NCBI GenBank assembly: GCA_011319805.1
Contig: SJRY01000270.1
Location: forward strand, 248,001-312,000
Length of the DNA: 64,000 nucleotides
DNA from: Macrocybe gigantea
Taxonomy: Eukaryota; Basidiomycota; Agaricomycetes; Agaricales; Callistosporiaceae
Direction of reading: 5' to 3'
Shown one piece after another: positions 3,081 through 58,747 of this stretch (position 1 is its first letter; each line of letters opens with the position of its first letter). Under the pieces are notes generated by a model. The model was given only the letters and a program-made list of their open reading frames with translations. It had not been told where the DNA came from and ran no database searches. Both the position numbers and the translations under genes were made by a program.

Positions 3081-4195
3081 ATGTCAGCTGCTGGACGCTC
3101 GAGGAGTTCAAAGCAGGCGAAAGCGCAAGAGAACGCTGGCAAAGACCCTCAGAAGAAGCCTTTGAGCACAGAGGACCAGATCAAGCGCTTGTACTCGTCG
3201 CTTAGCGCTCAGATTGAAGGAGGTCACTTTACAAACGCCATCAAGACGTGCAGCAAGAGTAGGCAGTGTATGAACCCTATCGTGCGTCTCAAAGCTAATA
3301 TGTTTTGGGTGCTTAGTTGCGAGGCTGGTGCCGGGAGACGACGATAACCCGCGGATGATGCTTTCCCTCCTGCTACAAACCGAGCAGTACGACCCTGCTC
3401 TGTCGCTGCTAGACTTGCATGATGATAAGCGTGGCCATGCGTTCGAGCGCGCATACTCATTATACCGCCTGCAGCGCGAAGGCGAAGCCAGGGAGGTGGT
3501 CGAAAGCATCAAGGAACAGAAAGGCAGTACAGATCGCGGGCTCGTTCATCTGGAAGCACAATTGGTCTGCATCACCTTTGCCCTTGCTCTAATCGATGCG
3601 TTCATTGAACTTTATTCCATCTCTTTAGAACTACCGCGAGGGATCCTACGAGGCGGCGCTCGGATTATACAACGAGCTGCTGGACACAGCAGAACCCGTG
3701 AGCCATTCCATTCTGAATGGCTGTGATGTAAATTGAACTTTGACCCCCCGGCAGAACTCCGAAGAGCACTCGGACATTTTGACCAACCTTCAAGCATCTC
3801 AGAAGCACCTGGATTTCATAAACACAGGTTTTCGCAACGCACTGGATGACCACCCAGCACGCCTTGCCGACATTGAAACCAATCCCCCACCGCTCCAGCA
3901 GACCACAGCCCTCCATAGCACGCTCGCAGCGGCTGCCTCAACACCCGAGAAACCTAGAGAGAAGAGCGTGCGCATGTCTCGTGTACCTAAGGGCGTGATA
4001 CCCGGTGTCACGCCTCCTCCGGATCCCGAGCGATGGCTGAAGAAGACCGAGAGATCGAATTACAATCAAGGAAGGAAGAAGAAGGGCGTTAGCGGCGGAG
4101 GAGCAACTCAGGGAAGCGTGAACGTTGATAGTCCGGCCGCTTCACAGAGTCACAGTACCAAATCTTCCGGTGGAAAGGGCAAGAAACGCAAGTAA
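3081..4195 (+). CDS. SRP72: signal recognition particle subunit SRP72, short form
   Basis: SRP72 binds SRP68 and the 7S RNA in the particle that targets secretory proteins to the ER. Four exons: 3081-3258, 3317-3564, 3629-3697, 3755-4195, giving 311 residues with frame kept at each junction. The N-terminal part has TPR-like helices (IKRLYSSLSAQIEGGHF, MLSLLLQTEQYDPALSL, YEAALGLYNELLDTAEP). The C-terminal part has the SRP72 RNA-binding signature GVTPPPDPERWLKKTERS followed by a Gly/Lys-rich tail ending GGKGKKRK. Human SRP72 is 671 residues; the central TPR repeats between the helix near residue 185 and the PDPERW motif are absent here, with no sign of extra exons in the 57-nt introns. It is either a compact form or an internally deleted copy. 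The start is the ATG that opens the exon with typical basic N-terminus. Confidence 0.85.
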
Positions 4196-6987: not shown

Positions 6988-8365
6988 TCGTTGGGGTGTT
7001 TATTAGTACGGTCGAGCCAGCCGCTGACTGAATTGATGATCTGCAGAACCTTCGTGTGAACGTGCCTGTGACGGAGAAGCGACGCTTGATCTAGGATAGA
7101 CAATAGAACGTCAGAATTGGTCGCACACTTTGGTTCTTGCTTCTGCTGGCTGTAAAATATTCCTTGTTCATCATCGGACTGAATATCCTGCATTTTTTCT
7201 CTTCATTTTGTCCTATGTAAATGTTTAGCGCAATCATTCTCAATCCGATGTTTTCTTCAAACATTACCGAATGCTTCATGACATGTCTAAACTTGCCTCA
7301 TGCCAAGAAATTGGAAGTTCTCGCTTAAAGGCCGTCCCCATGTTCCATTATGCACAGCCTCGGTAGCTATGGGAACATGTTTTTGGGAGCAAGCGGAAAT
7401 GGTCTTCGGTCTTTATTACTGTATCACCAACACGAATTCGGAGCCCCACCTGGAGCCAACGAAATAATCGCTCGCCGTGTGTCTACGAGTATGCAAAGTG
7501 GAGCAGACTGTTGCTTTTGTTGCTATTGTTTCTGTGAGCTTGTTTTCGCTCTACCCCACGTGCTGGACTGTCCGACTGATGTCCTGTTTTCCAGCAATAT
7601 GCGGGCATAGCAATTTACTACGATGGTGCTTTTACAGTGAGCGATACTAGACCGTTCTATGAGAAAAATCATGACCAGGCCTCACCAAAGTTCCTTGTCA
7701 AAAATGCTGTTGCAATAAGGGAGACCCAGAAGTCGACGACATGGCGAGAGAAGCGGAGCTCTTTACAGTGCAGCCTGAGCATCACCATGCAGTAATCTCC
7801 CAACAACCGGAACATAAGGCAGAGATATCAGAACTTCGTGCAATGGCGACACACCCTCAATATGTGGATCCCGGCCTTCGCGGTGCGAGACCTAACGTCA
7901 TTGTGGAATAATCGAATGACAAGTCTCTTTGGGTGAAAACAGATCAACCTAGGTAGACGCTCAAACGCTCAAGTCTCTGACCCGCGTTCCCCGTATCTGA
8001 TAGATGATGTATCAGCCTGTGCCATTTAACGCAAATGATATTCTCTGCACATCCCAAGACTGAAGAAAAAAAAAACAAGGCACCAGACTAGTGAACAAGA
8101 GCAAATAACCGCTCGTTCTTTCAGCCTCCTGTACCATCCATGTTGGAATCCACATTTTCATGCCGGTCGGGCCCTGCGGATTTCCAATCTGGCTACACGA
8201 TCCTCCGAACGGATTATGAAACTTGACACTGCCGCAGCAGAATGCGTGCACGAATTTGTCGCGTTCACAGAGTGGACATTTTAGGCCGATGCCGCGGTCT
8301 TGTGCATCGCATGTCGTCCATAAGTTGATTGGTTCGACTTGGCTTGGCTGCTTCGCAAACCCAGG
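6988..8365. other. mostly non-coding, one weak candidate exon
   Basis: No clear gene apart from the candidate exon at 7741-7911. The motif aaatgctgt[ta]gcaataagg at 7702-7720 recurs at 10804-10822, so this stretch and the one after the microexon gene may be related. Confidence 0.4.
7741..7911 (+). CDS. candidate small or terminal exon, unknown
   Basis: A 56-codon frame from ATG to TAA with balanced composition (start MAREAELFTVQPEHHH, end GLRGARPNVIVE). The same frame stays open upstream through a Cys/Lys stretch (CQKCCCNKGDPEVDD) and may be the end of a longer gene whose other exons I cannot see. No family recognised. Confidence 0.25.
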   Translation: MAREAELFTVQPEHHHAVISQQPEHKAEISELRAMATHPQYVDPGLRGARPNVIVE

Positions 8366-8372
8366 TATAAAA
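8366..8372 (+). promoter_or_regulatory. TATA box of the microexon gene
   Basis: TATAAAA 46 bp upstream of the ATG at 8418, the expected distance for a short 5' UTR. Confidence 0.5.
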
Positions 8373-8417
8373 TCTACTAGGCCTCATCCGCGGCTCGGAG
8401 GAGCCCCAGACACAACC

Positions 8418-10562
8418 ATGCTTTCAAAACAGATTTTATCGCCTAATTTCCTTACTTTTTTTCCGTTCTCCTTGGGTATGTGACTGCATCTCCAGTCGCA
8501 GAGCCTCAAATCGTGGTGTCGTACGTCGAACACAACGAATATTTCTTCATTCCGCTAACATGGCCTAGATCGGTGCTAGGGACTGTGTCGACCTTCTTGC
8601 CGCCTCTGACGAGTACGTTCGCAACGTACGTCAGACTCTTTCGATTTTGGTGCACCTCTCCTGTAGCTTACGACAACCCAGGGTTGCGCCTTCTACAGTG
8701 ACCTTCCCCGTTCCCATCTCGAGCACTGTGGTGACTATGTACGCGGTCGCAGGCGCCTCGCTCAGCCCTTGTACTAACGTTCCGTAGTCCTGGCGGTCCG
8801 CAATCCTCCGACGGCCACGGCGGGACAGTGACTACGTAAGAGCCGAGCTACCGCCCAGCTTACAGATTATTCACTTTGTCCTAGCTCTCGCAGTGGAAGC
8901 GCTATTTCGTCTAGCACCGTCCCGCTCACGTACACGACGATTTTCACTCATCCTGTACCTACGTGCGCCGCATCCGAGTATGACATGTTCCGATTGCCTT
9001 TGATCTCACTGCACGAATCGCAGGCTGATTTCGACTGTGACTGTGTAAGTGTCCTGCAGTCACTGACATCCCCGATGCACACTGATAGGTTCATAGAACG
9101 AAGACAGTCTATAACTGCAACGGGCATGGGCACGGGCATGGGCACGGTCACGGTCATACGTCTCCAGTCATCATGTTTGTCTCTGCCGCCAACCGTCTGT
9201 CATTGCCTTATAGCCGACCGCCTGACCTTATAGATCATCTACGGTTACTCCAACCTTGTCCAGGTACGCTAACTTGTTCGTTTATTTTCTTTTCCCCTTG
9301 TTTACCTACCATAGCAGCCCTGTAACTGTTTCCAGCAGCTTCACGACGTAAGCCGCTTTCCTCGTGTATTATCCCGGAATCACAAAGCATAGTACCATCT
9401 GTGATCAGTAAAGTCCCCTGCGCATCGTCGTCTGTCATTGGGTATGTTGTGCAGCGTCTCTTTTTAAATCTTAGCCTCATCACCAGCATTTCGTAGCACA
9501 GTCACCGTTAATGCTACTGTCCCTGGGTGCGTCCAAGCCATCCTTTACTGGATATGCTCGACCCTCATGCGCGAGGTCCTCATAGTAGTACCACTACTTT
9601 ATCTCGACCAGTGTCCAGCAGGTATGCGATACTATAGGAGATATTTGCTGGTATGCCTACCCACATCGGCGTTTTAGCGCTACAGTGTCCATAACTACGA
9701 TCCATGGGTACGTTAGCCTTTGCGTCCATTGATTCGTCAAGTATCCTATTCCCGACTATATCCTGCGTTGATCAGTAATCAAACCACTGTCCTACCTTCT
9801 TCGTCGTATGTCCTCTATGAACGTAATAATTCTATCTCATAATCCAATGCGACTATCAGCGGAGCGACTGTTGGTGTTCCGACTCTGTCTGGGTACGTCG
9901 TGTCGATCTGTTGCGGTCGTACCTCTAGTTCATCGCTTACTGAAACTACTAGCAATCAAACTATCGTTGTTCCCACCCCATCTGAGTGCGCTCCTCTATC
10001 TTCGCCTGGCATGCATAGTGATTCAAAATTTTGTCGGGTCATCAGCGGCCAGACCATTGTGATCCCTACCGCCTCAGGGTAAGTCTTCGATTCAAAGACT
10101 TTGACTGGTTGATAGCTCGCCTTCCTAACTCATGTGCTATATGATTATTAGCGGTCAGACTGAGGTTTCTCCCACTGCGTCAGGGTGCGTCGCCTATTCT
10201 TACCATAGCTCATCCTGATTTTGTGCTTCTGCCCGATCATGATTACAGTGATCAGACGATTGTTGCGCCCACCTCCTCAATGTATGGCGTTCCACATGTT
10301 AAGATATTGTGTTCTAATGAAATCGTCCTGTGCGGTTACAGTGGTCAGACAGTGGTTGCTCCCACTGCATCCGGGTATGTACAATTTTTGCTTTCGATCT
10401 TCCCTTCCGCTTAACGCAGATCGACAGGGGTGCGACCGTCGTAGACCCGATTTCGTCGATTTCACCGGCCATGTCCGTGCTATTTCCTTTTGTTCTGCAT
10501 GCTCGTGCTGATAGGGATACACTGTCGTTGTTAGCGCACGCTTTGCCTCTGGCGAATTCTGA
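8418..10562 (+). CDS. secreted Ser/Thr/Val/Pro-rich repeat protein built from tandem microexons
   Basis: My model has 22 exons: 8418-8520, 8569-8625, 8682-8738, 8788-8835, 8885-8954, 9024-9044, 9089-9159, then thirteen exons of 30, 33 or 36 nt (9234-9263, 9315-9347, 9409-9441, 9497-9526, 9586-9621, 9678-9707, 9776-9805, 9860-9892, 9953-9985, 10046-10078, 10152-10184, 10249-10281, 10342-10374), then 10428-10476 and 10515-10562. Introns in the array are 51-73 nt. All thirteen start and end after the second base of a codon, so the frame is kept. The product begins with a signal peptide ending near GYVTASPVAEP (if the T7 run 8456-8462 lacks one T). It continues with Thr/Val-rich segments, a Cys pair (DFDCDC), a (Gly-His)n run of about 13 residues (exon 7), then 11-residue repeats of type GQTVVAPTASG. 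It has 314 residues in the model. No enzyme domain is seen; a cell-wall or secreted, O-glycosylated stalk is an inference. The last two exons are less sure. Confidence 0.7.
9234..10374 (+). repeat. tandem exon-intron repeat array (13 units)
   Basis: Thirteen units of one short exon plus one intron, spaced 81-106 bp. Exon lengths are 30,33,33,30,36,30,30,33,33,33,33,33,33 nt. The last six to seven exons are clearly similar (GQT/NQT-x-V-x-PT-x-S), while earlier ones have drifted but keep length and phase. Introns share splice signals but little other sequence. The pattern suggests growth by duplication of an exon-plus-intron unit. Confidence 0.75.
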
Positions 10563-11271
10563 TCAATTTAGCAGCTGACTGAGATGCCAACCGATATTTG
10601 TTGGCCACGGTTATGGACCTGGATCAGGAATGGACTAATTGAACTTTTTCGTTTACTGTTTACCCCTTTGTGTCTTGTCTGCATTCTAACTTTGCGTTCG
10701 AGTATACCTAAGTGCAAACTTGAATGCGAAAATCCGAGCTGAACACGTGATTTTCTTAGGATCATAGCCTGAAGCGGACAAGTTCACTGATCAGCCAAGG
10801 TAGAAATGCTGTAGCAATAAGGCGCCGTACGGCCGGCCCTTTCTGCCTCATATCACCACGAAGTCGTATGGAGGACAGCAAAGCTACAGCAGTGCCTGCC
10901 CAAGACCGTTGGGCTCAGCCTCCAGAGTGGTGGTTCAGTTATTCGAGCACAACCGTCACTCGGATTCGATGGCTGCCAAAGAACAGAACTCACGTCCTCA
11001 TTTCCGTTGTTCTCGATGCCGGTACGATCGAACAGTTCTCTGGGGTCCGAATAATAGTTGCCGTTAAAGAGAACCTGGTCGAGGTTCTCGGGGACAAGGT
11101 GAGTTGGAACATCAACATCTCAAGGCAACAGATTGGAAGACGAATGTTCAATTTTATATTCAGCCTCTTCAGCACCAATTTGAATCCAAACATTCCTACC
11201 GGACACGAGCTTGCGTGCCATACAGGAACTTCTTAGAAAACCAGAGCGCCATTCAGCGCCGGACATTCGAA
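10563..11271. other. intergenic, no gene recognised
   Basis: An open frame from an ATG at 10868 (MEDSKATAVPAQDRW...) runs 122 codons but matches no family, and its latter half is doubtful. It could be an upstream exon of the following gene; a possible donor GTGAGT lies at 11099. It holds the second copy of the motif shared with 7702-7720. Confidence 0.4.
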
Positions 11272-28236: not shown

Positions 28237-29763
28237 TCATGCCTTAACCTTGAGCGTCTCTACAATGCTAACTTCTTCCGATTCCTCGTCCTGTTTCTCA
28301 ATCCACAAGTCGGCCGATTCCACGGCCTCATTCACGGACGCACACGTCGGGGCCTTCTGCCACGCGACGAACAGCTGAGGCTGGTACATCAGCTTGGCGC
28401 ACTGCAGAATCGGGTACGTCTCCAACAGCCGATGGATAAACATCTTCGCGGACAAGTTCCTCCACGAGGCCGTGAGTCGCGGCAGGCCCATCTGCACCGT
28501 GAGCTGGATGCTCGAAAGCTTCTTGTGGACGCGCGCCATGTTGAGGGCGTAGCTCAAGTCGTGGATGTCGACGCCGAGGCAGGAAATGGCGAGGTGACGC
28601 AGAGAAGGGAAAGAGTCGTGAACGGTGCGCAGGAGGCCGCCATCAAGATGGTGCACTTTGAACTTGAGCGAATGGATCTCGTCCGTCTCCAGTGCGGACA
28701 AAGTCTCCGAGAGGTCTGTGGGCTGGCAAGACGACGTCATCTCAATCCTAGTCACAGGGCGGTCTTTCGCGAACACAGGGATATAGGAGTGGGGCCCACG
28801 GAAGCATTCCAATTTGGGGAGGACATCCGGTGGTAGAGTGAAGTTCAGGGACGGAATGGTGTAGTTTCCAGAGACCAGACGCAGAGACAACTCACGCAGA
28901 TGGGAGAACCGATCCAGGACAGAAATAAAGTCAGGCGATGTGACGCAGCTCACGGGTATGTCGAGAGTCGAAAGAAGCTCAAGCTTGGTAGGCTGTCGAG
29001 CCAGCGCATCGATAATGTCGTTTCCTGGTCCTACAAAGATGCGTTTCATATATTTTGAGCCTAGAACGGCGGACAACAATGGAAGGGAGGCATGATCATC
29101 AAGAGAGGTAAACGGTGCGTCGACCACCAGACTTTCGAGCTGCATGAGAGACAGATCGGGGATCGAAGTAGAAGCTACGCAGCATGAATGCAACTCGAAA
29201 TGGTTCAAAAGAAATTGATGTTGAAGAGTGGCCAAACGTCGAGGTGAGAACGTGATGCTGTGGCAAACCAGCCGTTTTAGGGTAGTAAGGCGAGGAAGGA
29301 CGTTGAAGACGCAGTCGATCATTTCTTCTATGACTTGATGTACTTGCAGGGACGTCTGAGAGTCAGCGTTGGTGAGCGTAGGACGCTCTGGTATGATTCG
29401 CAGTTCTTCAATAGACGCTGAGATGTGAGGGAGGTCCAAAGCCATAATCCGGGAATTGAACTCGGAGACACCGGGATAGATGTTGTCAACGAGGAGAGCT
29501 TTGGAGGACGAGACCCGAGGCCGAACAACGAACGCCTTGAACAAGAATGGTTGAGCGATCCATCTGAGCGGGCGACAGGTCAGCGCTACGGCCTGGATGG
29601 TGTCAGCGGGCACACGGAGGAGCACATCGAGCCAGAGTTCTGTTGGCAATCGGATGTTATGCTCGGTGCGGAGGGTTTGATCCGCCCCGGCTGGATTTGG
29701 TTCGGCCGGAAAGGTCGTCAAGCTTGACATCGTTTCGACGATGTCCATGGACAGAGTCTGCAT
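28237..29763 (-). CDS. F-box/LRR protein, single exon, 508 residues
   Basis: The N-terminal F-box lies near residues 37-80: IRLPTELWLDVLLRVPADTI, then ALTCRPLRWIAQPFLFKAFV. The rest is Leu-rich: FNVLPRLTTLKRLVCHSIT, LSLMQLESLVVDAPFTSLD, FSHLRELSLRLVSGNYTIPS and SFPSLRHLAISCLGVDIHDL. The acidic C-terminus ends EETLKVKA-like (VSIVETLKVKA). It is a likely substrate adaptor of an SCF ubiquitin ligase, by family. The frame is intact, with no introns. Confidence 0.8.
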   Translation of the reverse strand: MQTLSMDIVETMSSLTTFPAEPNPAGADQTLRTEHNIRLPTELWLDVLLRVPADTIQAVALTCRPLRWIAQPFLFKAFVVRPRVSSSKALLVDNIYPGVSEFNSRIMALDLPHISASIEELRIIPERPTLTNADSQTSLQVHQVIEEMIDCVFNVLPRLTTLKRLVCHSITFSPRRLATLQHQFLLNHFELHSCCVASTSIPDLSLMQLESLVVDAPFTSLDDHASLPLLSAVLGSKYMKRIFVGPGNDIIDALARQPTKLELLSTLDIPVSCVTSPDFISVLDRFSHLRELSLRLVSGNYTIPSLNFTLPPDVLPKLECFRGPHSYIPVFAKDRPVTRIEMTSSCQPTDLSETLSALETDEIHSLKFKVHHLDGGLLRTVHDSFPSLRHLAISCLGVDIHDLSYALNMARVHKKLSSIQLTVQMGLPRLTASWRNLSAKMFIHRLLETYPILQCAKLMYQPQLFVAWQKAPTCASVNEAVESADLWIEKQDEESEEVSIVETLKVKA

Positions 29764-35829: not shown

Positions 35830-38800
35830 GAATCACAACGATAACACCAGAAGTTGATAGCGGAGCGGATAGGACCTGCATCAACACCGCGATAGTAGCA
35901 AAAACAGGACTGAAGACACGACGAATCAAGAAGATTCCCATCATAAATGCAGACGGATCACCCAATCGTCAGAAAACAGCAGACCGAGTAGCGGAGGTCC
36001 ACATCGACATTAAAGGACACAAGGAGCACATGGAAGCCATCGTACTCGACATCGGAAAAACTGACATGCTACTAGGACATGATTGGCTTGTCTACCACAA
36101 CCCAACAATCAAATGGAGGACAGGAGAAATTGTCTTTGACAGATGCCCCAAAACATGCAAAATAAACCACCAGACGATCAAGATACAGAAGGTGGCTGAA
36201 CCAGCGAAAACCACAGCCAGCGACAAGACAGGAACCCAGATACCCCCATATCTGATCAGATTCAAACACCTCTTCAAGGAGAAGAACTTTGATCACCTAC
36301 CAGACCACAAAGAATGGGACCATGAAATAAACTTAACGAAGGATGCACCCAAAACGATACCGAGCAAGGTCTACCCGATGACACAGAAAGAGCTAGAGGA
36401 ACTAGATGCCTTCGTCGAAGAAGGATTACGAACAGGAAAAATACGCCCATCGAAATCACCTTACGCAGCACCCTGCTTCTTTCGCAATAAGAAGGATGGA
36501 AGCAAGCGACTCATCCAAGACTACTGGGAAATAAACAAATATACAGTCAAGGACAAGTTTCCACTACCACGCATCAGCGAGCTCCTCGACGTACTACAAG
36601 GAGCAAAGTACTTTAGCAAGATCGATATTATCTGGGGGTACAATAACGTGCGCATTCGGAAAGGGGACGAATGGAAGGCAGCCTTCCTAACAGCAAGAGG
36701 ACTCTTCAAACCGACAGTCATGTATTTTGGGCAGTGCAACACACCAGGCACTTTTAGCCAAATGATGGCGAGCCTCTTCCAAGACCAAATATGAAGAAGA
36801 GCATGCATAATCTATATGGACGACATCATAATCATCGGACGAACACGAGAGGAACTCCAAAAGAACACCATAGAAGTCATGGAAATACTGAACAAGAACG
36901 ACCTATTCATCAAAGGACCGAAATGCATCTGGGAATCATCGAAAGTCCCAGTACTAGGATACATCGTAGGAGAAGGGAAGGTAGAAATGGAACCAGAAAA
37001 GATCACAGCCGTACAATCCTGGCCAACCCCAAAGACAAAGAAAGAACCACAAAAGTTCTTGGGATTCACGAACTTTTACCGACGATTCATCAAGGGGTAT
37101 GCAAAGGTCGCTAAACCCCTGACGGAGTTGACTGGAAACAAAACATTCCAGTGGACAGACAAGCAACAAGGTGCTTTCAAAGAACTGATCCAACATATAA
37201 CCTCAGCACCCATTCTAGCACTACCACAGACAGAAGGAAAATTCCGAGTCGAAACGGACGCCTCAGGATATGCCATTGGAGCGGTACTATCACAACAGCA
37301 GAAAGGACTATGGCATCCGATCGCATTCATCTCGAGATGCATGACCCCAGTGGAACAAAACTATGAAATCTATGACAAGGAACTTCTTGCGATAATGGTC
37401 GCACTAAAGACATGGAGACAATACCTCCTCGAAGCTCAAGAGAAGTTCGAAATATTGACGGATCACAAGAACCTATCATACTTCCGGAAGCCGCAGCGAC
37501 TCAATTCGAGACAGATTGGCTGGTACCTGAAATTACAAGAATACAACTACGAACTACGACACGTACCAGGAAAGGCGAATGGAAAAGCGGATGTCCTGTC
37601 ACGGATGGCAGGATATGAAGAAAACCTAGCAGAGAAGGACGACATACAAATGATCAAAGAAGCAGCATTCATTCGACATCTGGAAGAGAATAATGAACGA
37701 GACTTCAAATTTATGATGTTCAAGGACGAACACCCACGGAAAGAAGAAGCAGAAAATAACGAAACAATACAAACAAGAGGAATCACGATGATCGAATCCT
37801 CAAGGATAGAACAATTCAACAATGCACACGAAGGGAGACAATCGTAACAACAGGACTGAAGGAAAAACCACACTGGTTCACAGAAGACGACCACATCATA
37901 TACGCAGGAGGAAAAATCTATGTTCCTCCAGACAACAAACTGAAGGAAAACATCATGTTTGAACACCACGACACACCCATCGGAGGACACCCAGGACAAT
38001 ACCGCATGCACGAGCTCATAAGCCATACCTATTGGTGGCCATCAATGCTAACAGACATCAAGAAGTATGTCAATGGATGCGAAACATGTCAGCGAAACAA
38101 AATCATCCGACAAAAGAAACATGCACCCCTGCACCCGCATGAAGTCCCACAGCAACCATGGGAAGATATCGGAGTAGATCTCATAGGACCGCTACCTAAC
38201 TCGAATGGCTTTAATGCCATCGCCGCAGTCACAGACCGCCTGACCAAGATGATCCACCTAGTTCCCACAAAGACCGAACTCACAGCAGAAGGTCTCGCAT
38301 GACTATACCGAGACAACGTGTGGCGGCTTCATGGAATCCATGAAAGATCATCAGTGATCGAGGACCCCAGTTCGCAGCACGATTCATGACAGCACTTCTA
38401 AAATTACTCGGAACAAAGCAAAACCTATCAACAGCCTATCACCCACAGACAGATGGACAGGTGGAGCGATCCCACCAAGAAACGGAAGCCTTCCTCAGAA
38501 GCTTCACAAACAACCTACAGGACGATTGGGCAGAATGGATAGCAATCGCAGAGTACCAATACAATGACAAAGCACACCAGGGAACGAAGGAGACACCATT
38601 CTACCTCAACTATGGAATGCACCCCTGGAAGGGAGAGCCGCAGACGACAGAAGGGAATAACCCCGCAGCAAAAGACTTCGTCAAAAGAATGAGCCAAATA
38701 CGAAAGGAAGCAAATGCCGCGCTGCAATATGCACAAACACGAGCCAAAGACAATTATGACGCGAGACGAAAACCTGCCCGTGAATACAAGAAAGGAGATA

Positions 38801-39215
38801 GAGTATGGCTAGAAGCCACCAATATCACAGTCAATCGACCATCAAAGAAGTTATCGGCACTCCGATACGGACCGTTCAAGGTGGTTGAAAAGAAAGGAGC
38901 CTCGGCATATCGCCTGGAACTCCCAGCATCATGGCAGCTGATACACCCCGTGTTCAATGAAACACTGCTCACGCCTTACAAAGGACCCCGTTTCAAGATA
39001 CAAGAGCGACCATCACCACTACCCCCTGAAATCATAAATGATGAAGAAGAGTACGAGATAGAAGAGATCCTAAAAAGGAAGAAACAAGGGAGGGGACACT
39101 ATTCCTGGTCAAATGGAAAGGATACGGACACGAAGAGAACACATGGATCAAAGAGAAGGAGCTGGGGAATGCGCAGCAAGCTCTAGACCACTTCCTAAAG
39201 AAGACTGCGAACCAG
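35830..39215 (+). pseudogene. gypsy pol: protease, RT, RNase H, integrase, chromodomain
   Basis: Protease active site DSGADRT at 35856. Reverse transcriptase includes LPLPRISELLDVLQGAKYF and IYMDDIIIIGR (YMDD at 36811-36822); a TGA at 36792 breaks it just before. RNase H spans roughly 37140-37600 (ETDASGYAIGAVLSQ, EIYDKELLAIMVALKTWRQY, TDHKNLSYF). Integrase has the HHCC zinc finger (HHDTPIGGHPGQ...CETCQRNK, 37960-38100), the core (DLIGPLPNSNGFNAIAAVTD) and AYHPQTDGQVERSHQE, with a TGA at 38300 and a frame change near 38330. A chromodomain follows at about 39045-39215 (YEIEEILKRKKQGRG, then WKGYGHEENTW in a shifted frame). Not functional as written. Confidence 0.85.
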
Positions 39216-43560: not shown

Positions 43561-43733
43561 GCTACCAGCCCAACACCATGGAAGAGAGAGAAGACAGGAA
43601 CTTCGAAAGCGGAAGGTCCAAAGGTAAAGGACATCAACTCATCCAACTTGACGGCTAACGTGCAAGTTCTATTGGTCGGTTCCGTAACATTGTATTCGAC
43701 ACGGATTGTAGGAACAGGAGAAAAAAGTTAGAG

Positions 43734-43807
43734 TGGCCAACGTGGGGATCGAACCCAAGACCTTCGCGTTATTAGCACGACGCTCTAACCAACTGAGCTA
43801 GTCGGCC
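43734..43807 (-). tRNA. tRNA-Ile (anticodon AAU)
   Basis: A 74-nt cloverleaf: acceptor stem GGCCGAC/GTTGGCC (one G-T pair), D-arm GCTC/GAGC, anticodon loop CTAATAA, T-arm with TTCGATC. No intron, CCA not encoded. In transcript direction it is followed by a T6 run (complement of 43716-43721), a pol III terminator. The opposite-strand copy at 45881-45954 has the same sequence. Confidence 0.95.
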
Positions 43808-45880: not shown

Positions 45881-45954
45881 GGCCGACTAGCTCAGTTGGT
45901 TAGAGCGTCGTGCTAATAACGCGAAGGTCTTGGGTTCGATCCCCACGTTGGCCA
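45881..45954 (+). tRNA. tRNA-Ile (anticodon AAU)
   Basis: Same 74-nt cloverleaf as the copy at 43734-43807 but on the plus strand. A T5 run at about 45978 can serve as terminator. Confidence 0.95.
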
Positions 45955-46428: not shown

Positions 46429-49410
46429 ATGGCCTCGTCTAGTAACGATGAGCCCCACGCACCCACACCTGCTGAGCCGGCCGTTGTCGACCCAGATCCG
46501 GCACTGGCACCCTCGCAGCCCACTGCAACACTGATAACATCACCATCAGATCCAGTGCCGACGACGGAACCTGCACCCGCGGCTGAACTTCCATCCGTCT
46601 CCACATCCGTCCCAGCGCCAAAGGAACCAGCAGCAGCTCCAGTCGCGGCGCCTGCGGCGACGCCGTCGCCTTCCGCAGTCGAGGTCAAGGAGTACCAGCC
46701 CGGCCTGCTCGTCACGGCCGAGCTCGAGAAAGCGCTGGACGAGTGCAAGGCCAAGGTCGCGCGCATCGCACGCGACTGTCGAGCCAAGAACCGCAAGTTC
46801 CGGTGAGCAGCGCACATATGTTTGAGTATGTCGCAGGAGGGATTGATCTCTGGCTTGCCAGCGACAACGAGTTTGACCTCGAGAACGACCAGTACGCGTG
46901 TCTGCACGGGCTCGACTTTCCCTCGTCGGGCAAGTTCGTGCCTTCGGACGTGCAGCGCGTCACCCAGATATTTGACCATCCACAGTTCTTCGTGAATGGC
47001 GCGGACTGCAACGATATCGTCCAGGGGAGGCTGGGCGACTGCTGGTTTCTGTCTGCGCTCGCGACCATGACCGCTGCCAAAGGCCTCGTGGAAAAGTTTT
47101 GCGTCGCGGTGAGCTGCGTTTCCTCCTGGTCATTGACGATTTTTGGTTTGCTTAGCTGTGTGGGCTGTCAGAGGGACGAGCAAGTCGGCGTGTATGGGTT
47201 CGTCTTTTTCCGCGACAACAGATGGGTGAACGTCGTTATCGACGAGTGCGCTTCTTGTTCTTCCACGTCTTCCGCACTCTTCCTGCCTAACTACACATCC
47301 AGCATGCTGTACACTTGCGTTCCTAAATACGAAGAGCTCACGACCGCAGAGAAGGAGCTCTACCATGAGGACAAGGAAAAGTACAACGCCTCGGCGCGCA
47401 AGGGCGGCAAGACGCTCTACTTTGCAAAGTCCGGCGGCGCCGGAGAGACGTGGGTCCCACTCATCGAAAAGGCATACGCGAAGTTGCACGGAGACTATGT
47501 CGCGTTGGTCGGAGGCAAGGCCGCGGAAGCTGTAGAAGATCTCACAGGGTAACGTCTTCCTTTCCCGTGTTTTCTCTTCTCATCGGATCTGTGGCGTCGA
47601 TCGCTGATTTTCCTTTTCCTTCAGTGGCGTGTCTACTGTGTTTCGCAGTCGGGTAAAAATCCCCGCTTCGCTGCTTCTCCTTCTCTCTTGCTGATCTCCT
47701 CGTGTCTGTGCAGGACATCCTCGATCAGGAACGCTTCTGGAACGATGAGCTCCTACGCGCTAACAAGGATCGTATCCTAGGGTGCTCCTTTGACACACTC
47801 GACTCGTCCAGGAGTGGCCTGCGCGACGTCACCGTCGACGGGCTCATCGGCAGCCATGCCTACTCGGTCCTCCGCGCGCGCGAATGCAAGGGTCGCCGCT
47901 TCATCGTGCTTCGCAATCCCTGGGGCAAGTCGGACTGGACCGGCCGATGGTCGAACGGCTCAAAAGAGTGGACGGCGGAGTGGCTTGAGGTTCTGCCCAT
48001 GCTCGAGCACGAGTTTGGGAACGATGGACAGTTTGTGATGGAGTGTGAGCGACTGAGGGTGTTGTAGCGCGATTGATTTTTACTGACGGTTTGGGAGCAG
48101 ATTGCGATTTTCTGACCGTGTGGGAGCATATCAACCGAACGATGATATTCGACTCGAGTTGGACGATGTCCTCGCAATGGCTTCAAGTCCCCATCCCTCC
48201 TCTCCCTGCGGCATGGTCATTCGGAGACGTTTCCTGTAAGCCCCATGTCATATTGCCCAACTTGGACACCGAACATTTACCATGCATACTTACTAGTCAC
48301 GTTTACGATCCCCAAGCCGACGTTCGCGATCATCGTCCTCTCGCAGGTTGACACGCGCTACTTTAAAGAGATTTCGGGTTCGTCGTACTGGGGCTTCGAC
48401 TTTGTCCTCGTCAAGCGCGGCGAGAAGGAACCCATCGGACACACGACATCCGCCATTCTGTACCCGAGGAGCGTCAACTTGGAGGCGCAGCTGGAAGCGG
48501 GAGAGTATGTGGTATACGTCAGTCCTTCCTCTTCTTATATGTGGTATTATTCCGTGCTGATGGACGTTTCGCACAGGTCCGTGTAGAACGCACCATTCTG
48601 CGAGACATAGTTTGTGCATCAGACGTTTCTTGTTCGGTAGTGTGCTCACGGTGCGGAACAGGATTACTACAAGAAAGGTGTAGACAGTGGCTGGGACCAC
48701 CGCAAATTGTCAAAGATTCTGACGGAGAGAGCCAAGAGCCGTTCTATTGCCTCAAGTGGGTACTCATAGTCCTTTATTTCTTCCCCGAGTCAATCTAAGG
48801 TTTGGAAAAACAGATTTTAAACCTGGGTAATTATTGCCCTTTGCCAGCGAAGCTCAGGTCTCAACTATACTAATTTTTTACCACACAGCATTCAGAAGAA
48901 ATACATACCTACAGAACTCTCCGAGCTGATAGAGCGAGACCTCGCTCTCTACGAGAAACAGAAAGAGGCGGAGAAGGTCGGAAAGACCGAGACGGTCGAG
49001 AAGGACAACGGAGACGGCACAAAGACTGTTACTGTAACCACAGTGACCACGACGACGATGACAAAGACCGAGACGACCGTGACGAAGCAAAAGCCGGACG
49101 GTTCAGATAAAGAGCCCCCCGGCTGGTCCCCAACACCGCCGACCCCACCTCGAACACGGCAAACGAAAGCTTCAATGCCCCAGATTACATGCAATTCATG
49201 CCCACGTCACCACCGTCATCGCCTGTTCTACACTCTGCGGCTCCCTCCCCGCCGCCGCCGCCCGCACCGCAGAACCCGCTGTCATCACAGATCGAGATCC
49301 AGGAAGACGAGAACTCGGTCTTTCTGGGCCTCCGGCTATATACGAACAAGGAGGCCCCAGCGGTGATAACGGGACAGCTCAAGGCTGATTCCGAGACGTT
49401 CGCGAAGTAG
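46429..49410 (+). CDS. calpain-like cysteine protease (family C2), 11 exons
   Basis: Exons: 46429-46802, 46862-47108, 47172-47245, 47303-47548, 47625-47652, 47714-48044, 48101-48235, 48297-48517, 48577-48609, 48662-48759, 48889-49410. A Pro/Ala/Ser-rich N-terminus of about 90 residues is followed by the calpain protease core. The catalytic Cys is in QGRLGDCWFLSALATM (about 47020-47070), the His in LIGSHAYSVLRA and the Asn in FIVLRNPWGKSDW (47846-47945). A beta-sandwich (C2-like/calpain III) region follows: WTMSSQWLQVPIPPLPAAW, YWGFDFVLVKRGEKEPIGHT and GEYVVYVRVERTILRD. A helical part (KLSKILTERAKSRSIAS) and a Thr/Val-rich low-complexity stretch precede a C-terminal domain (IEIQEDENSVFLGLRLYTN). 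No EF-hands are seen. The C6 run at 49115-49120 seems one base short; with it the model is 770 codons. Intracellular and probably Ca-dependent, by family. Confidence 0.85.
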
Positions 49411-50931: not shown

Positions 50932-51138
50932 TTCGCGGTCAGCGCAGTAACTTGCAGCAGACTGCTTGAGCCGGAACATGCCCTTAGAGGACTACTTTCG
51001 AGTCGAGCGAAGTGCTTCCGCTCCTCGATTGTTCCTGGCAGCTTTATGCGCCATCCTTCGAGAAATATAAGCGACCCTTCGCGGGAAGCCTCTTTCTCAC
51101 AATGAAGCTAACGATCTTTCTTTTAGAAATTGATCGAA

Positions 51139-52095
51139 ATGGCCAGCCTCGCAAAAGACATTTCTATGCTCGACGGCTCCAACTACAGGACCTGGTCGGT
51201 CCAAATGAAAGCTCTTTTAATGTCGCAGGGTGCCTGGGGTATTACCCAGGGCACTTGGACAAGACCTGTTCCCACGGCTTCCGATTCTAAGGCAGATGAG
51301 ATCGCCGAATGGGAAAAGTACAATGAGATTGCACAGGGATACATTCTCTTAAGAACCACCGCTCAGGTTCAGTCCAGCATTAACTTGTCGCAGGCAAACA
51401 CTGCTGCCTTGCTTTGGACTGAACTGCAAACTAAATATTCGCTTACTGGTCCGGCGATCACTTTTGCCGATTACAAAGAGACCCTCAATTTCAAAATTTC
51501 AGGTCAACAAAACCCCAACGTTGAGATTCAACGTCTTGCGACTGCCTATGCCCGCCTCGCCGCGAATAATATCGCGATTCCCGAGATCATTAAGATAATG
51601 ACTCTCCTCGCCGCTCTGCCGCAAGGGTATGATTCCCTAGCACAGACTATTCTTGCCTCGACCGATGAACGTAACCTCTCTTGGTCAGCTGTTACTTCTA
51701 CGATTGTTGCCGAATGGCAACGTCGGCATCCCACTTCCGCCACCAAAGAAAAACATCAGGCAAACAAGTTGTCTGCTGTCAAGCTGAAAGGCTCTAACCC
51801 TCACTGGCGGAATAACAACAATAATCAACAGAAGCAGTCCGATAAGCCATCAGACCAGAATGCTGACAAAAAGCAGAAACGAGGCAGACGAGGAAAGGGA
51901 AAGGGCAAAGCCCCTGAGCACGATCACAACCATGGTCACGACCACCACTTTGCTGAACCGGTAGTTCGACTACCGATGTCTGATGCCGCAGCTGGAGTTC
52001 TCCAGCGCCTTCACGATCCTCCGGCCCAGACCTTCTCTGGCGCCAAACCAACCAGCATGCCGAAAGGCATCTATCCCACCTACGATGCCGCGTGA
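51139..52095 (+). CDS. copia 1 Gag
   Basis: 318 residues. The core starts SLAKDISMLDGSNYRTWSVQ (LDGSNYRxW, typical copia Gag/UBN2) and continues with LLWTELQTKYSLTGPAITFA and IMTLLAALPQGYDSLAQTIL. In place of a CCHC zinc knuckle the C-terminus has a Lys/Arg run (KKQKRGRRGKGKGKAPEH) and a His cluster (HDHNHGHDHH). The frame is intact. Confidence 0.85.
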   Translation: MASLAKDISMLDGSNYRTWSVQMKALLMSQGAWGITQGTWTRPVPTASDSKADEIAEWEKYNEIAQGYILLRTTAQVQSSINLSQANTAALLWTELQTKYSLTGPAITFADYKETLNFKISGQQNPNVEIQRLATAYARLAANNIAIPEIIKIMTLLAALPQGYDSLAQTILASTDERNLSWSAVTSTIVAEWQRRHPTSATKEKHQANKLSAVKLKGSNPHWRNNNNNQQKQSDKPSDQNADKKQKRGRRGKGKGKAPEHDHNHGHDHHFAEPVVRLPMSDAAAGVLQRLHDPPAQTFSGAKPTSMPKGIYPTYDAA

Positions 52096-55000
52096 AATCT
52101 CGCGACACGACTCGATGTTTCGCCCACGATTGGCATCTCAAAACACTCGAAGGCATCACCGAACAAAGCGAATTCGTTCAAGGTTCTTCAAAACGTACAA
52201 TTGACGATCTAGATGCTGAAACCAGCGTCTACAAAAAACTTCGCTTCAAAAAGATCGTCGAGGAAAAAGATGAAGAAACCGTTTCGCTGGGATCAGAGCC
52301 GCTGGATTGGGGATCTGACGAGTATGTCATTCCTGATTGCTCACACATTCAAACTAACATGGCAATACAGCGACCTAATTACATAGATAATGCAGTTTGT
52401 AATGCCGAACATTTGAATAAACATCATGTTTACCCCTGTAATTGTGAGCAATGTAAGAAACGTGCCGATAAAGGCCTTTCATACTGGATCGTCGATTCCG
52501 GCGCATCCGGACATGTATCAGGAAATATAAATGACTACATGGCTTTTACCCGATGGGACGAGCCAAAATACTCGGCAACAGCAAACGGTCGCACTCCTAT
52601 TGAGGGATATGGAACAGTGTTTTTAAGACACAGGATTTATGAGACAAACGGCAGCATATCTGAAAAGATTACGCGCCTACACCCTGTCCTTCTGCTCGGA
52701 GATCCAAATCTGAGATTACTCTCGATGGGACAATTTCTCCGACAAAAACAAAATGTATTAGGCAATATCAATAGAATCACCTTTTACAAATATGGACGTC
52801 AACAAATGATCGCTCTTCCAGCCAAAAAGCCGGATACGATCTATGAAGTCGAAACTAAGATCTTAACCGATCTAGAGATGACGGCAACATATACCATGCT
52901 TGCCACGCCAACTTATGATATTTGGCACCAGCGGATGGGACATCCTTCTCGGATCGTCCTAACTAAAATGGATGAAGCAACTAGAGGTTTTCCTAAAAAT
53001 CTCGATATCCCAAAGATCGACGAATGACCTTGTTCTGGATGTGCACAAGGCAAAATGCCTGCACCGCATTTTCCCAAATCTGACAAAAGAGCCACCGCAC
53101 CTTGCGAGCTCATACACTCAGATTTAAAAGAATTCCCGATATTGTCCTATGGCAAATTCAAATGGACAATTACTTTCCTTGATGACTATAGCAGTTACGC
53201 CTGGGTTAGCCTCCTGCGAAACAAAACTGAAGCGAAAGATCGCATCAAAGAATTTGTAGCGTGGATGGAAACCCAACACAATCTTAAAGTTAAAAGATGG
53301 CGTTCTGATCAAGGGGGAGAATATATATCGGGAGAACTTCAGGAATTCATGCGATCCAAAGGAATTGAGATTGAATATTCGGTGCCTTACATGCACCAAC
53401 AAAATGGTCGAGCAGAACGTCTAAATCGGACATTAATGGAAAAGTGGCAAACAATGCGCTTCCATGCTTGTTTGCCGCCTTCTTGGTGGCAATTCACCAT
53501 TTTCCAAGCAGTACAGGTCTACAATCGTATGCCAACGCACCGCTTGAAATGGAAAACCCCTTACGAAATATTCTCGAACCAAAAACCTGATGTTTCGAAG
53601 CTTCGCGTCATGGGTTGTGGTGCTTATGTCTTCATTCATGAAATCAACGGAAAAATAAACTGTCACCGAGATCTGAACTAATGATTCACCTCGGGTTCAT
53701 TTCGAACAGCGAAGGTTATCTCTTCATGAGACGGCCAAATAATGTGCTTTTCCAAGCAACAAAGCCACCTTCGACGAAAGACTATTTCTGTGTTGCCCCA
53801 CATACAACCATGAAGATCCGCAAACACCCGACTTCAGAAGTAATGATGACGACTATGATCCATCGACTGGCGCACCTCCAGGTGGCGACAATAACGATGA
53901 TCCTGAAACTCCTCATCCACCTCCACCTTCGGAATCACGATCACGAGATCATGGTCAGACTCGTGATAGATCACGTGACCCCCCTTCAGAAAGAGAAGCT
54001 GATGCGCATGACGATGAAGCAGAAGCTCCGGATAATCCTCTACCGGGAAACCAGGAACCTATTCAGGAACCTGAAGAACGTCCCAATCCCTTCGAACCAC
54101 ACGAAGGTGATTTAGAAGAATTGTGTCGCCGCAGAGACCTGTGCGAACCCGCCGATATCTTAAATGATCCTAGGCGACCAACACGCAATCTTCCGAGACA
54201 AAGACCACAGAGAGATATCCATCCGCCCAAAAGGCCAGGCAATGTCTATGGAGATCGCCCTCCAACAGAACAATTTCGAGATATGAACCGACAACGGTTC
54301 TGGAGAAAGAATGTCGAAAACGACAGACCACCTTGAGAAGCACCGGTTCCCGGACTGACTCGAGAAGACGAACCCGTCAATTCTCCACCGAATATGGACA
54401 TTGATCCTGATATGGACACTAGATCCGATCTTACCTGAATAGTCTGGGAAGGGGGAGTAGAGCTATCAAATTATTTGCTTTCTAAAGCACTTCCAGTCGA
54501 TAGCGAAATTCCACAAACAATAGGCGACATAGAGTGCTTACCAGAGCAGCTCAAGAAGGAATGGAAAGACGCTTGCCGTGACGAGTTGTTGTCACTCGAA
54601 AAGCACAAGGTCTTTGAACTGGTGGACTTGCCGAAAGGCAGAAAACCTATAAAAAATAAATGGGTTTTCACCATAAAAGCGACGGATGAAAGAAAGCGCG
54701 CTTAGTCGCAAAAGGCTTCTCTCAGAAAGAGGGAATCGATTATGATGAGATTTTCTCGCCTGTCGTCCGATACGAGACTTGTGAATAATACTCGCAATAG
54801 CAGCTCTCGAAAATTGGGTTATTCTCGCCCTAGACGTCAAAACTGCTTTCTTATATGGCGATTTAGAAGTAGAAATATACATGGAGCAGCCAACAGGCTT
54901 TCAGCTGAAAGGCGCTCTAAAGAATAAAGTCCTGCGACTGAGAAAGGCGCTTTACGGACTTAAGCAAGCATCACTCGCCTGGTGGAAACAAGTTAACAAA

Positions 55001-56001
55001 ACCATGGCAAAACTAGGCTTTAAACGCCTATACACCGATGCTGGCATTTACATCTACAAAGAAGGCTCCAAACTTGTCGTAGCCATAATCTACGTAGATG
55101 ATGGACTCTTCCTAGGCCCAGATCGCAAACTTGCAGCCAAGAAGAAGTCCGAATTCATAAAGATCTGGGAATGCCGAGATCTAGGCGATGCTGAAGAATT
55201 CCTTGGCATCAAGATCAGACGTGATGGTCAAAAGATCATCCTCGACCAACAGGATTACCTCTGAAAGGTCGTTAAACATTTTGGCATTGAGAATGCGAAG
55301 ATCGCATCAACTCCTTTACCCGCCGGCTATCAACCGATAGCTAATAATGCGGCGATCAACCCAGAACTTCGATCACAATACCAAGCAGTTATTGGATCGC
55401 TCCTTTATCTTATGCTCGGTACAAGGCCTGACATAGCCTTTGCAGTCATCAAAATGTCACAATTCTCTGCGAACCCTTCGCAAGAACATCTTAATCGGGC
55501 AATGTACATTGTGCGATATCTCGCTGGTACTCCTGATTACCAATTGACTTTTGATGGTGCCTCAAACGAGGGACTAATTGCATATACCGACTCTGATGGG
55601 CTTCCGACCCGATCAAACGACGATCCATGACGGGTTTCTTTATGAAACTTGCTAATGCCACAATCTGCTGGAATTCGCGACTCCAAAAAACAGTGGCATT
55701 ATCCTCCACTGAAGCCGAATACATGGCGCTCTCTGATTGTAGCCGCCAAGTTGTTTGGATTCAGCAAATGTTCGCCGAACTAGGATTTAAAGAATCTAAA
55801 ACGCCAATCTGTGGCGACAATCAAGGTTCTATTTTCATAGGATCTAATCCAGTTCAAGAAAGACGAACAAAACATATAGACATTCGCTATCACTACATAC
55901 GCGAATGTGTTGAAGATGAAAAAGTCTCAGTAGTCTTCATTCCAGGGAACGAAAATCCTGCTGACATGTTCACAAAGAACTTGCACAAATCAAGTACCTA
56001 A
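52092..56001 (+). pseudogene. copia 1 Pol
   Basis: It overlaps the end of gag in the next frame. Protease active site WIVDSGASGHVSG (about 52485). Integrase zinc part HQRMGHPS...CSGC is broken by a TGA at 53027; the core is HSDLKEF...RWRSDQGGEYISGE...YMHQQNGRAERLNRT. Reverse transcriptase runs from about 54470, with a frameshift near 54705 and 54790, then KALYGLKQASLAWWKQ and IIYVDDGLFLG (YVDD 55091-55102). RNase H includes GSLLYLMLGTRPDIAFAV, TDSDG, LSSTEAEYMALSDCSRQVVW and RTKHIDIRYHYIRE. Several stops (53027, 53681, 54335, 55264, 55630) interrupt it. Confidence 0.8.
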
Positions 56002-56074
56002 AATTCCGCGAGCAATTAGGGCTTACCTTTTATGCCAAACGCACTCAAATTGAAGCTGCATTTAGCGAGGGGAG

Positions 56075-56383
56075 TGTTGAAAATGTGGCAGCAACCCTGC
56101 ACCCTACCATTTTCCCTCTGCCCTAATTTTCTTGGCTTCACAGCGCAGCCTGTATGCTCAGTCATACCCTGCACTATTATCACTAGGATTAGTGAGCGCA
56201 CCCTCAACCCTGATGGTCTGTGCGCCACTTAGATATGTATAAATATGTCCTATGTAGTATGCCAATAATATAACCGAGTTTCACTTAACCAAGCCTACGC
56301 AGTAAGACCAACCTCTAACAATCCACTAACGTAAGTAGTCCGTTCTAGCTCAAGAGCTTCCTAGCTTGGGTCCAGTTTCAACA
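56075..56383 (+). repeat. 3' LTR of copia 1
   Basis: 309 bp, four transitions from the 5' LTR by eye. Confidence 0.95.
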
Positions 56384-58747
56384 CAATCCAATTTCGCGAA
56401 CGAGGCGTTGGTGTGTGGTCGCGGGTAACGGTTTCGTGAAGATGTCGGCGAGGTTGTCCTCGGATGCGCAATGGAAAATCTCAATCTCGTTAGAGATCAC
56501 CTTTTCGTGGACGAAATGGTGTTGGATGTCGATGTGCTTGCTCCGCGCATGAAAGCCCGAATTCGCTGAGAATTATCGTCGAGCTGTTGTCGATAAAGAG
56601 TGTCATCGGGTCGCTGATGGGATATTGAAGCTCATCGTAGACATGGCATAGCCATGCTGCTTCGCGAGTCGCGAGGCTGGCAGCCATGTATTCCGCCTCC
56701 ATTGAAGACAGCGCGATGGTCGGTTGTTTCTTCGCGCGCCATGAAATTGGTCTGCCGGCTAGAAGAAAAACATAGCCAGTGGTCGATCGGCGGTCGTTGG
56801 GGTCGGATCCCAGTCAGCGTCGCAATAGCTGGTCGGCGTAGTGTCTGCGGTCATCCCGTAGGTGATTCCGTAGTCGCGCGTTCCGTTGAGGTAGCGGAAG
56901 ACATGTTTGACGGCAGTCCAATGAGCCGGTGATGGGTTAGAAGAAAATTGACTTAGCTTCTGAACCGCATAGGCTATGTTGGGTCGCGTCCCTATGGCGG
57001 CATACATTAGTGATCCGATGGCCTGCAAGTATTCGGGGATATGGTGGGTTTCCCCTTCAGGGGTTTTCTTGAGTATGACGTGAGGATCGAGCGGCATCTT
57101 GATGGGGTGGGAGTCTTGCATGCCGTGTCGTTTGAGAATGCGCACGACATATTGAGATTGGGAGATCCGGATGGTTCCCGTCTCATTGTTGCGGTGGAGT
57201 TCAAGGCCAACGACTTGGCAGGCTTCGCCTAGGTTGGTTATCTTGAACCGGGATGCAAGCTGGGCCTTAGCTCGCATCGTCACGTCGTCGTCGGAAGCGA
57301 TGATGAACATGTCATCAACGTGAATGGCAACAATTACTAAATCATTACCAAGCTGCCGAAAATAGACGCATTGGTCGGAGAAGAGGCGCGTGAAGCTGAG
57401 TTCGAGGAAAATTTTATTCAGCTTCGCGTTCCATTCTCTCCCTGACTGCTTGAGTCCGTAGAGGGTCTTGAGCAGCAGCAGGACGTTATCTGTCCCGTCT
57501 TCATAGCTGGGGGGCTGGATCATGTAGATCTCCTCTTGGAGGTCTCCATTTAGGTAAGCTCCCACAGCATCAATCACATGCGTTTTGAGTCCTAAACGGG
57601 CGGCGAGTGCAATTAGCAGGCGCAACGTCTCCAGGCGCATCACTGGCACAAACGTCTCCGTGAAATCCATGCCAGGGATTTGGCTGAAGCCCTTTGCGAC
57701 CAGCCGTGCCTTGTATTTCGTCACCCGCCCCTCGCTATCCCGTTTGATGTGAAAGACCCACTTGCAAGGCACGGCCTTGCGCCCTGCAGGTAAGCCCTTC
57801 CTTTTCCAGGTTCCCAAGTCCCTGAGCTGGCTGATCTCATCGTCCATAGCCGCTTTCCATTTTGGCCAGTCAGGCGACTCCTGTGCCTCATGCAATGTCC
57901 GCGGCTCATTGGCCGCTTCCCCTCCTACCAATGCGAAGTCGACGAACTCGAATTCGTCATCGTCGGCTTCCTCAATGCCGACGTTCGCGCGTTCTGCATT
58001 CGCTTTTGGCCTATGGCTGGCTGGATTGTGCAGTCTTGCATAATTCGGCTGGGGTTTGTCCATTACGCGAGTCGTTCGCCGCTGGAGAATTGTTGCAACC
58101 GGAATTTTCGACGGGGTGAGTCCTTTTGCTGGCCGAATTTCTGGTGCAACGTTTTGATCAGTGCCTGATGACATTGTCCCTGCAGCCCTGCTCGCGCTGC
58201 TGGGAACCAGGTTTGCCGGATCCGGCTTGCTTTCCAGATTCGGTGTGTTCTGGCTCACTGGCTCCCCCTCAAGCTGGGAAGGCTGAGCTGGTTCCAGAAT
58301 TATATCATCGTCATGTTCCTCCGGCAGGTCCTCCAGCAAAAAAATGACGTTCCGTGATGTCAATATTCGCCGCGCGCTTGGACTGTAGTAGCGGTAGCCC
58401 TTCATCCCAGCCGCGATTCTGGTAAAGATGAATTTTCGCGACTTGGCATCGAGCTTACTGATTTTGCCATTCTGATTTAGGACCCAGCACAGTCGGCCGA
58501 ACTCCTGCAGATCGGCGATGTCTGGTTTTTTGCCCGTAAAAACCTCGTCGGGCATCTGTCCTTTCAGCGCATTGGTCAGTGAGCGATTTCGGAGGTAATT
58601 GGAGTACGTGATAGCCTCCGGCCATAGGAATTTTGGTACGTTCCATGCAATCATCATTGCGCAGGCCCGTTCGACTAACATTCGGTTCAGTCGCTCGGCA
58701 ATTCCATTTTGGGAAGGTGAGTGCGCGGCTGTGATTTCTAACTCCAT
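56384..58747 (-). pseudogene. copia 2 Pol, integrase end, RT and RNase H
   Basis: A long open frame (58747-56759): integrase end SPSQNGIAERLNRMLVERAC, then the RT part [97 protein letters not shown] (HVDD where YVDD is usual) and GSLMYAAIGTRPNIAYAVQK. It shifts frame near 56800. RNase H follows (SSMEAEYMAASLATREAAWL; DNSSTIILSE), and the end HFVHEKVISNEIEIFHCASE and LADIFTKPL reads in further frames to REIGL, where copia 1 is inserted. Confidence 0.8.

Follow-up and report, generated by a model that had tools for sequence, protein, structure and literature searches.

Introduction

Micro-exon genes (MEGs) of Schistosoma consist of many short exons whose lengths are mostly multiples of three. 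In the available text of PMC10526429 their exons measure 6-81 bp, the majority being 15 bp, and their introns 100 to almost 5000 bp, while the product is described as secreted with a signal peptide and alternative splicing is discussed. Aphid bicycle genes, including megacycle, are putative effectors with about 17 exons on average; according to the accessible portion of PMC9168663 they contain long runs of unusually small internal exons that share a uniform phase, almost all beginning at codon position 2 (termed 'exon phase 2'). A fungal family with dozens of frame-neutral tiny exons is that of the NACHT-ANK genes of Tuber melanosporum, in which 3-bp mini-exons are alternatively spliced in an NLR-type receptor (PMC4986451, PMC9815663, as far as the accessible text of both goes).

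Here we analyse a locus of Macrocybe gigantea that lies in a stretch of 64,000 nucleotides, hereafter the window, and that shares features with each of these systems. As in the Schistosoma MEGs there are many short exons of lengths divisible by three, but the introns measure 48-73 nt and the exons, of about 33 nt, are mostly copies of one repeat, whereas secretion is only predicted. The run of small internal exons in a single phase recalls the bicycle genes, yet the array exons uniformly begin with codon position 3, so the phases differ; bicycle genes are furthermore animal genes, for which the accessible portion of PMC9168663 does not describe the exons as copies of a single short repeat. Compared with the truffle genes, the exons are 30-36 nt long and the product is probably a secreted repeat protein rather than a receptor. 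The likeness is structural: we claim neither sequence relation to nor membership in the MEG, bicycle or truffle mini-exon families.

The predicted product also resembles the Ser/Thr-rich cell-wall proteins and adhesins of fungi, with which it shares low-complexity T/S/V/P repeats and N-glycosylation sequons. In these proteins the repeats usually lie within one exon, and no Pfam family was matched here. Among the matches listed by a search of open-licence literature (titles and abstract starts) there was no fungal gene in which each micro-exon carries one repeat, nor, among the matches listed from the same literature, a fungal surface protein with 13-20 consecutive micro-exons.

Methods

Phase 2 denotes an intron after the second codon base, which means that the following exon starts with codon position 3. 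The micro-exon size limit of 36 nt was taken from the available part of PMC11121469. A strict chain finder accepted exons of 30, 33 or 36 nt between a YAG acceptor and a GTRNG donor, separated by introns of 50-75 nt, all in one phase and without a stop. The donor rule was widened to GTNNGT after GTTTGT had been noticed at the donor of exon 7, hence post hoc. Branch sites were not part of the chain-finder rules and were scored at a suitable distance in the introns. Nineteen other stretches of the assembly, amounting to 181,340 bases or about 0.4% of its 41.2 Mb, were scanned likewise.

A chain of thirteen micro-exons

Thirteen consecutive exons of 30, 33 or 36 nt, exons 8-20 of the gene model, occupy positions 9234-10374 of the plus strand. 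Both borders of each exon fall after the second codon base and the intervening introns measure 51-73 nt. The first seven are found at 9234-9263 (exon 8), 9315-9347 (exon 9), 9409-9441 (exon 10), 9497-9526 (exon 11), 9586-9621 or, by eye, 9589-9621 (exon 12), 9678-9707 (exon 13) and 9776-9805 (exon 14), followed by 9860-9892 (exon 15), 9953-9985 (exon 16), 10046-10078 (exon 17), 10152-10184 (exon 18), 10249-10281 (exon 19) and 10342-10374 (exon 20), all on the plus strand.

Applied to the window, the strict chain finder returned a 13-exon chain at 9234-10374 that is identical to the exons 8-20 read by hand. Elsewhere in the window the longest strict chain was 1 on the plus strand outside the locus and 2 on the minus strand. 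Dinucleotide shuffles of 8418-10600 did not exceed 2 either, a length reached in 3 of 500, and when the whole window was shuffled the same maximum was reached in 12 of 60 cases. In the other stretches of the assembly strict rules gave at most 2 in 38 strand scans, and the longest chain was 3 when exon lengths of 18-60 were allowed. The chain stayed at 13 exons with exons of 15-90 nt, introns of 42-80 and the donor rule unchanged, shuffles then reaching at most 5 (1 of 200). Under the GTNNGT-widened rules it grew to 20 exons at 8580-10472, with shuffles again at 5 or less (3 of 300 reach 5). This longer chain takes in 10428-10472, the donor of which is doubtful, and its 5' exons partly differ from the hand choice.

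The thirteen frame-neutral exons of 30, 33 or 36 nt that the earlier note had spliced by hand are thus recovered by a program that follows splice rules, at a length that none of 500 shuffles approaches (2 at most). The same note had named a single unspliced frame as one observation that would contradict it; no ORF of more than 96 aa was found inside 8418-10578. By its sequence the locus has the structure of a micro-exon gene, with 13 consecutive internal exons of at most 36 nt, in multiples of three and of symmetric phase.

Loose GT/AG sites are common and at low stringency other splice chains exist at the locus, as might be expected from a chance run of splice-like sites in non-coding sequence. 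Shuffles are nonetheless confined to 2 under strict and to 5 under loosened rules, and the repeat and codon-position evidence given below is independent of them. Chance splicing is rejected on the shuffle controls of the strict and loosened chain finder, and we assign it a practically negligible probability. A dynamic-programming model that uses splice sites only found 7 of the 13 array exons exactly, kept introns 5, 12 and 16 inside exons and changed phase in between. Splice scores alone hence do not give the 13-exon reading, for the common phase and the repeat borders are needed to force it. The micro-exon layout looks real and unusual.

Splice signals

Donors conform to GTRNG in 19 of 20 introns, the one after exon 7 having GTTTGT, and the introns of the gene model, 48-73 nt long, end in YAG acceptors. 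A CTNAY branch site is present in 14 of the 20 introns, compared with a shuffle mean of 5.1 (0 of 2000 shuffles reach 14) and a presence in 16% of 409 decoys. The looser YTNAY is found in 16 introns (p = 0.003; 31% of decoys) and CTRAY in 6 (p = 0.018; 10% of decoys). When the 13 array introns are taken alone the excess is weaker, with 7 for CTNAY (p = 0.02), 9 for YTNAY (p = 0.15) and 3 for CTRAY (p = 0.16). Retention of 5 of the 20 introns, 4 of which are among the 13 of the array, would give neither a stop nor a frame shift.

Repeat units and coding constraint

A repeat finder that knows no splice rules identified a 37-nt unit that is present six times at 9858-10376 with a spacing of 93-106; the copies correspond to exons 15-20 plus flanks. 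Each copy opens with AG and closes with GT, and these are the borders of six 33-nt, GQTVVAPTASG-like repeat units (9860-10374, plus strand). Mean pairwise identity among exons 15-20 is 0.62 in the exon and 1.0 at AG and GT; in the flanks it drops to 0.33-0.34 on the upstream side, and downstream to 0.53 for the four donor bases after GT and to 0.26 past them. Differences at codon positions 1, 2 and 3 amount to 0.267, 0.279 and 0.606 (p = 0.0003, column permutation). This third-position excess reflects constraint on the peptide that this frame encodes.

Among exons 8-14 likeness at the DNA level varies. Exons 8, 11, 13 and 14 are similar to some of the other exons in the array, with z up to 3.5-4.2, exon 13 matching exon 11 best, while exon 10 resembles exon 11 only (z 3.3) and exons 9 and 12 hardly resemble any other array exon (z at most 2.1 and 2.4). 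Over all 78 pairs of array exons the mean z is 2.1. The notion of one repeat per exon, put forward for the whole array, is clear for exons 15-20, but judged by pairwise DNA z it is weaker or absent in some of exons 8-14.

Origin and age of the array

In the hand-chosen gene model introns 2-20 all have phase 2, which renders separate insertions unlikely and favours duplication of exon plus intron. Growth by duplication of exon-plus-intron units is the best account of the array, and its uniform phase supports it. A unit with phase 2 on both sides would have been duplicated repeatedly long ago, and given this phase on both sides every unit could be gained or lost without affecting the frame.

Fourfold sites of exons 15-20 are near random: at identical T, V, P, A, S and G residues, 27 of 82 third-position comparisons are matches, where 0.25 would be expected at random. 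Since third positions are near-saturated, the expansion is old. Unit identity at separations 1 to 5 is 0.61, 0.65, 0.63, 0.55 and 0.61 (5, 4, 3, 2 and 1 pairs), hence without a clear fall with distance, and exons 18 and 20 form the only pair that stands out (82% identical). Similarity between introns is nowhere significant, the best of 78 pairs having p = 0.156. Two intron pairs were considered as traces of recent unequal crossing-over and rejected, those after exons 11/12 (z 6.9) and after exons 16/17 (z 4.1), since over 78 pairs neither is significant (p = 0.156 and p = 0.432).

With introns that are not alike, adjacent units only 0.61 identical and third positions at 27/82, the locus is not a recently expanding tandem array. 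Unequal crossing-over, the mode of growth proposed earlier, may have operated long ago, but the unit alignment (27/82; intron p = 0.156) bears no recent trace of it. An array that still varies in length, as the earlier note would have it, finds no support in the same third positions (27/82) or in the adjacent copies, which are no closer than distant ones.

Another order of events would have the repeats arise first in one exon, with introns inserted later at equal points, either at proto-splice sites or in the manner of introners. This scenario is compatible with other readings, and the introns have no significant shared sequence, such that a common intron origin is not directly visible. It would however need many independent phase-2 events, with a rough probability of (1/3)^18 for a model that was chosen with symmetry in mind, and recent introner copies would be alike, which the array introns are not. 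We consider later insertion very unlikely and retain duplication of exon-plus-intron units.

Gene ends and exons outside the array

A TATA-like motif (gtataaaatc, 8365-8374) and a short leader, both recognised by eye, appear to precede the ATG (8365-8417, plus strand). Exon 1 (8418-8520, plus strand), which is uncertain, provides this ATG and a hydrophobic start. In the ATG frame the hydrophobic start is short, and the frame opened at 8418 meets a stop at 8481-8483. Of the routes found for exon 1 in a splice-scored model, the best is a 104-nt intron at 8476-8579 that keeps a frame open. A stronger-looking intron at 8521-8568 (GTACGT, CTAAC, TAG) is entered in phase 2 from a non-ATG frame with secretory-looking residues. 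The misfit of exon 1 may stem from a mistake in the assembly, from a start that is broken or from a splice that went unrecognised.

Exons 2-7 precede the array on the plus strand at about 8569-8625, 8682-8738, 8788-8835, 8894-8962, 9024-9044 and 9097-9174. All are multiples of 3 in phase 2, with borders that are partly ambiguous, as the chain finder picked others for three of them. Exon 7 (9097-9174) contains a His-Gly dipeptide run (CNGHGHGHGHGHGHT), metal-binding-like, ahead of the repeat array. At the 3' end an uncertain exon 21 (10428-10578, plus strand) looks like a degenerate further unit. Its stop lies at 10576-10578 if it is unspliced, which is best by splice score, as opposed to the TGA at 10560-10562 with which the first reading ended and which requires a last intron that looks weak by eye. 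From the 22-exon frame originally drawn over 8418-10562 exons 8-20 are recovered, but exon 1 joins poorly and the final exon allows more than one reading. A direct repeat of 19 nt (95% identical) flanks the gene at 7702-7720 and 10804-10822.

An exon 1 whose frame misfits the strong-looking first intron, together with a 3' end that lacks a clean donor, could point to a pseudogene, in decay or inactivated recently, in which a formerly functional micro-exon array persists. Against this, every one of the 13 exons of the array is bordered by GTRNG/YAG and stays open in a single phase, and the third-position bias is kept in exons 15-20, though past selection may explain that bias. On balance we think it unlikely that the gene is a pseudogene.

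Predicted product and search for relatives

The 300-residue model of exons 2-21 is rich in T (54), S (51), V (38), P (28) and G (26), and has three N-X-S/T sequons. No clear C-terminal GPI signal was seen by eye in this model, the 3' exon structure of which is uncertain, and a 286-aa spliced model matched 0 Pfam families at E <= 0.001. The product is probably a secreted, extended repeat protein rich in Ser, Thr, Val and Pro. It would form a stalk on the surface or in the cell wall that carries O- and N-glycans, the His-Gly stretch being situated before the array.

A protein search of the assembly for paralogues gave 7 matches at E <= 10 among the best candidates scored, all at this locus. DNA searches of the assembly likewise found, among the best candidates scored, the locus itself only and no allele on another contig. 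The unit pattern derived from exons 15-20 occurs at 5 places in the assembly, all within this array, and its backward-read control at 0. In the protein database none of the 7,991 candidates scored reached E 0.01; the fungal coverage of this database looks thin, since a 508-aa protein encoded in the same window drew just 2 relatives among 7,997 candidates.

Splicing of the array

Short introns make intron definition likely. What the sequence shows is the array with its splice signals and, for exons 15-20, both a coding constraint and an old age. We are fairly confident that the locus is a real multi-intron gene, with an old duplicated array that is constitutively spliced into a Ser/Thr-rich, probably secreted protein. 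Expression, secretion, glycosylation and constitutive splicing of the gene we infer. The micro-exons would all be included constitutively by intron definition, each intron of 48-73 nt being recognised via its own donor, its YAG acceptor and, mostly, a CTNAY branch site.

The array might instead serve as a diversity device, in which combinatorial skipping of symmetric exons yields many stalk lengths from one gene, a role that has been proposed for the schistosome MEGs. None of the 91 skip junctions that join exons 7-20 to exons 9-21 creates a stop and all 13 exons are phase-2 symmetric (20 by the loosened rules), so that the earlier note was right in that any exon or run of exons could be skipped without changing the frame. 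The intron definition suggested by the short introns argues against such skipping, as does an array that is old and without recent turnover.

The alternative splicing of tiny exons in the truffle NACHT-ANK genes (PMC4986451, PMC9815663, accessible text) supports a diversity device, and so does the junction-level count for Schizophyllum commune, in which 1,527 skips of exons in coding regions stand next to 7,851 alternative sites. The transcript-based count for the same fungus, in which exon skips in coding regions are 1% of events, speaks against it (both counts from the available part of PMC5034255). Combinatorial skipping in this gene seems to us rather unlikely. We are similarly doubtful that the locus is a fungal equivalent, evolved independently, of the micro-exon genes of schistosomes and aphids, in which skipping of runs would set the stalk length and the glycan or metal-binding pattern per transcript. 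Constitutive inclusion remains our preferred reading.

Neighbourhood and assembly

An SRP72 RNA-binding domain match at 3740-4195 is over the cut-off and a TPR-like match at 3328-3726 below it. The SRP72-like gene at 3328-4195 is perhaps partial and presumably shorter than the usual SRP72. The 508-aa protein is encoded by a single exon at 28237-29763 (minus strand), has no Pfam match and looks F-box-like by eye; its two relatives show 47% and 41% identity and both come from source lgn. Retrotransposon pieces are present at 36816-39186 and 51130-58747, with RNase H and Tf2-type SH3 matches (Gypsy-like) and with Copia gag and RVT_2. Two tRNA-Ile (AAT) genes lie on opposite strands at 43733-43807 and 45881-45954, both scoring 60.4 bits, and Rfam found nothing else in the window. 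A calpain-family protease exon (PF00648) is located at 46743-47552.

P450 exons gave 112 matches in the assembly, which together with the short introns and the Gypsy-like and Copia-like elements would point to an agaricomycete. Contig pairs such as C103/C251, C193/C285 and C216/C248 have P450 exon matches with identical scores. This suggests that the paired contigs are retained second haplotypes or recent duplicates; the micro-exon locus was found once.

Implications for fungal repeat proteins

In fungal surface proteins the expansion of repeats normally takes the form of tandem DNA repeats inside one exon. The growth unit at this locus seems to be an exon together with its intron, which a uniform intron phase has kept open, and the layout resembles that of the micro-exon genes for secreted proteins in flatworms and aphids, here in a fungus. 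Very small exons tend to elude gene predictors, as the accessible portion of PMC11121469 indicates for one fungal microexon, hence further genes of this kind may have gone unnoticed. Should the exons be skipped, the gene would be a fungal generator of isoforms from one gene, outside the animals. If they are not, it would be a good test of whether the splicing of short introns carries 13-20 consecutive micro-exons faithfully.
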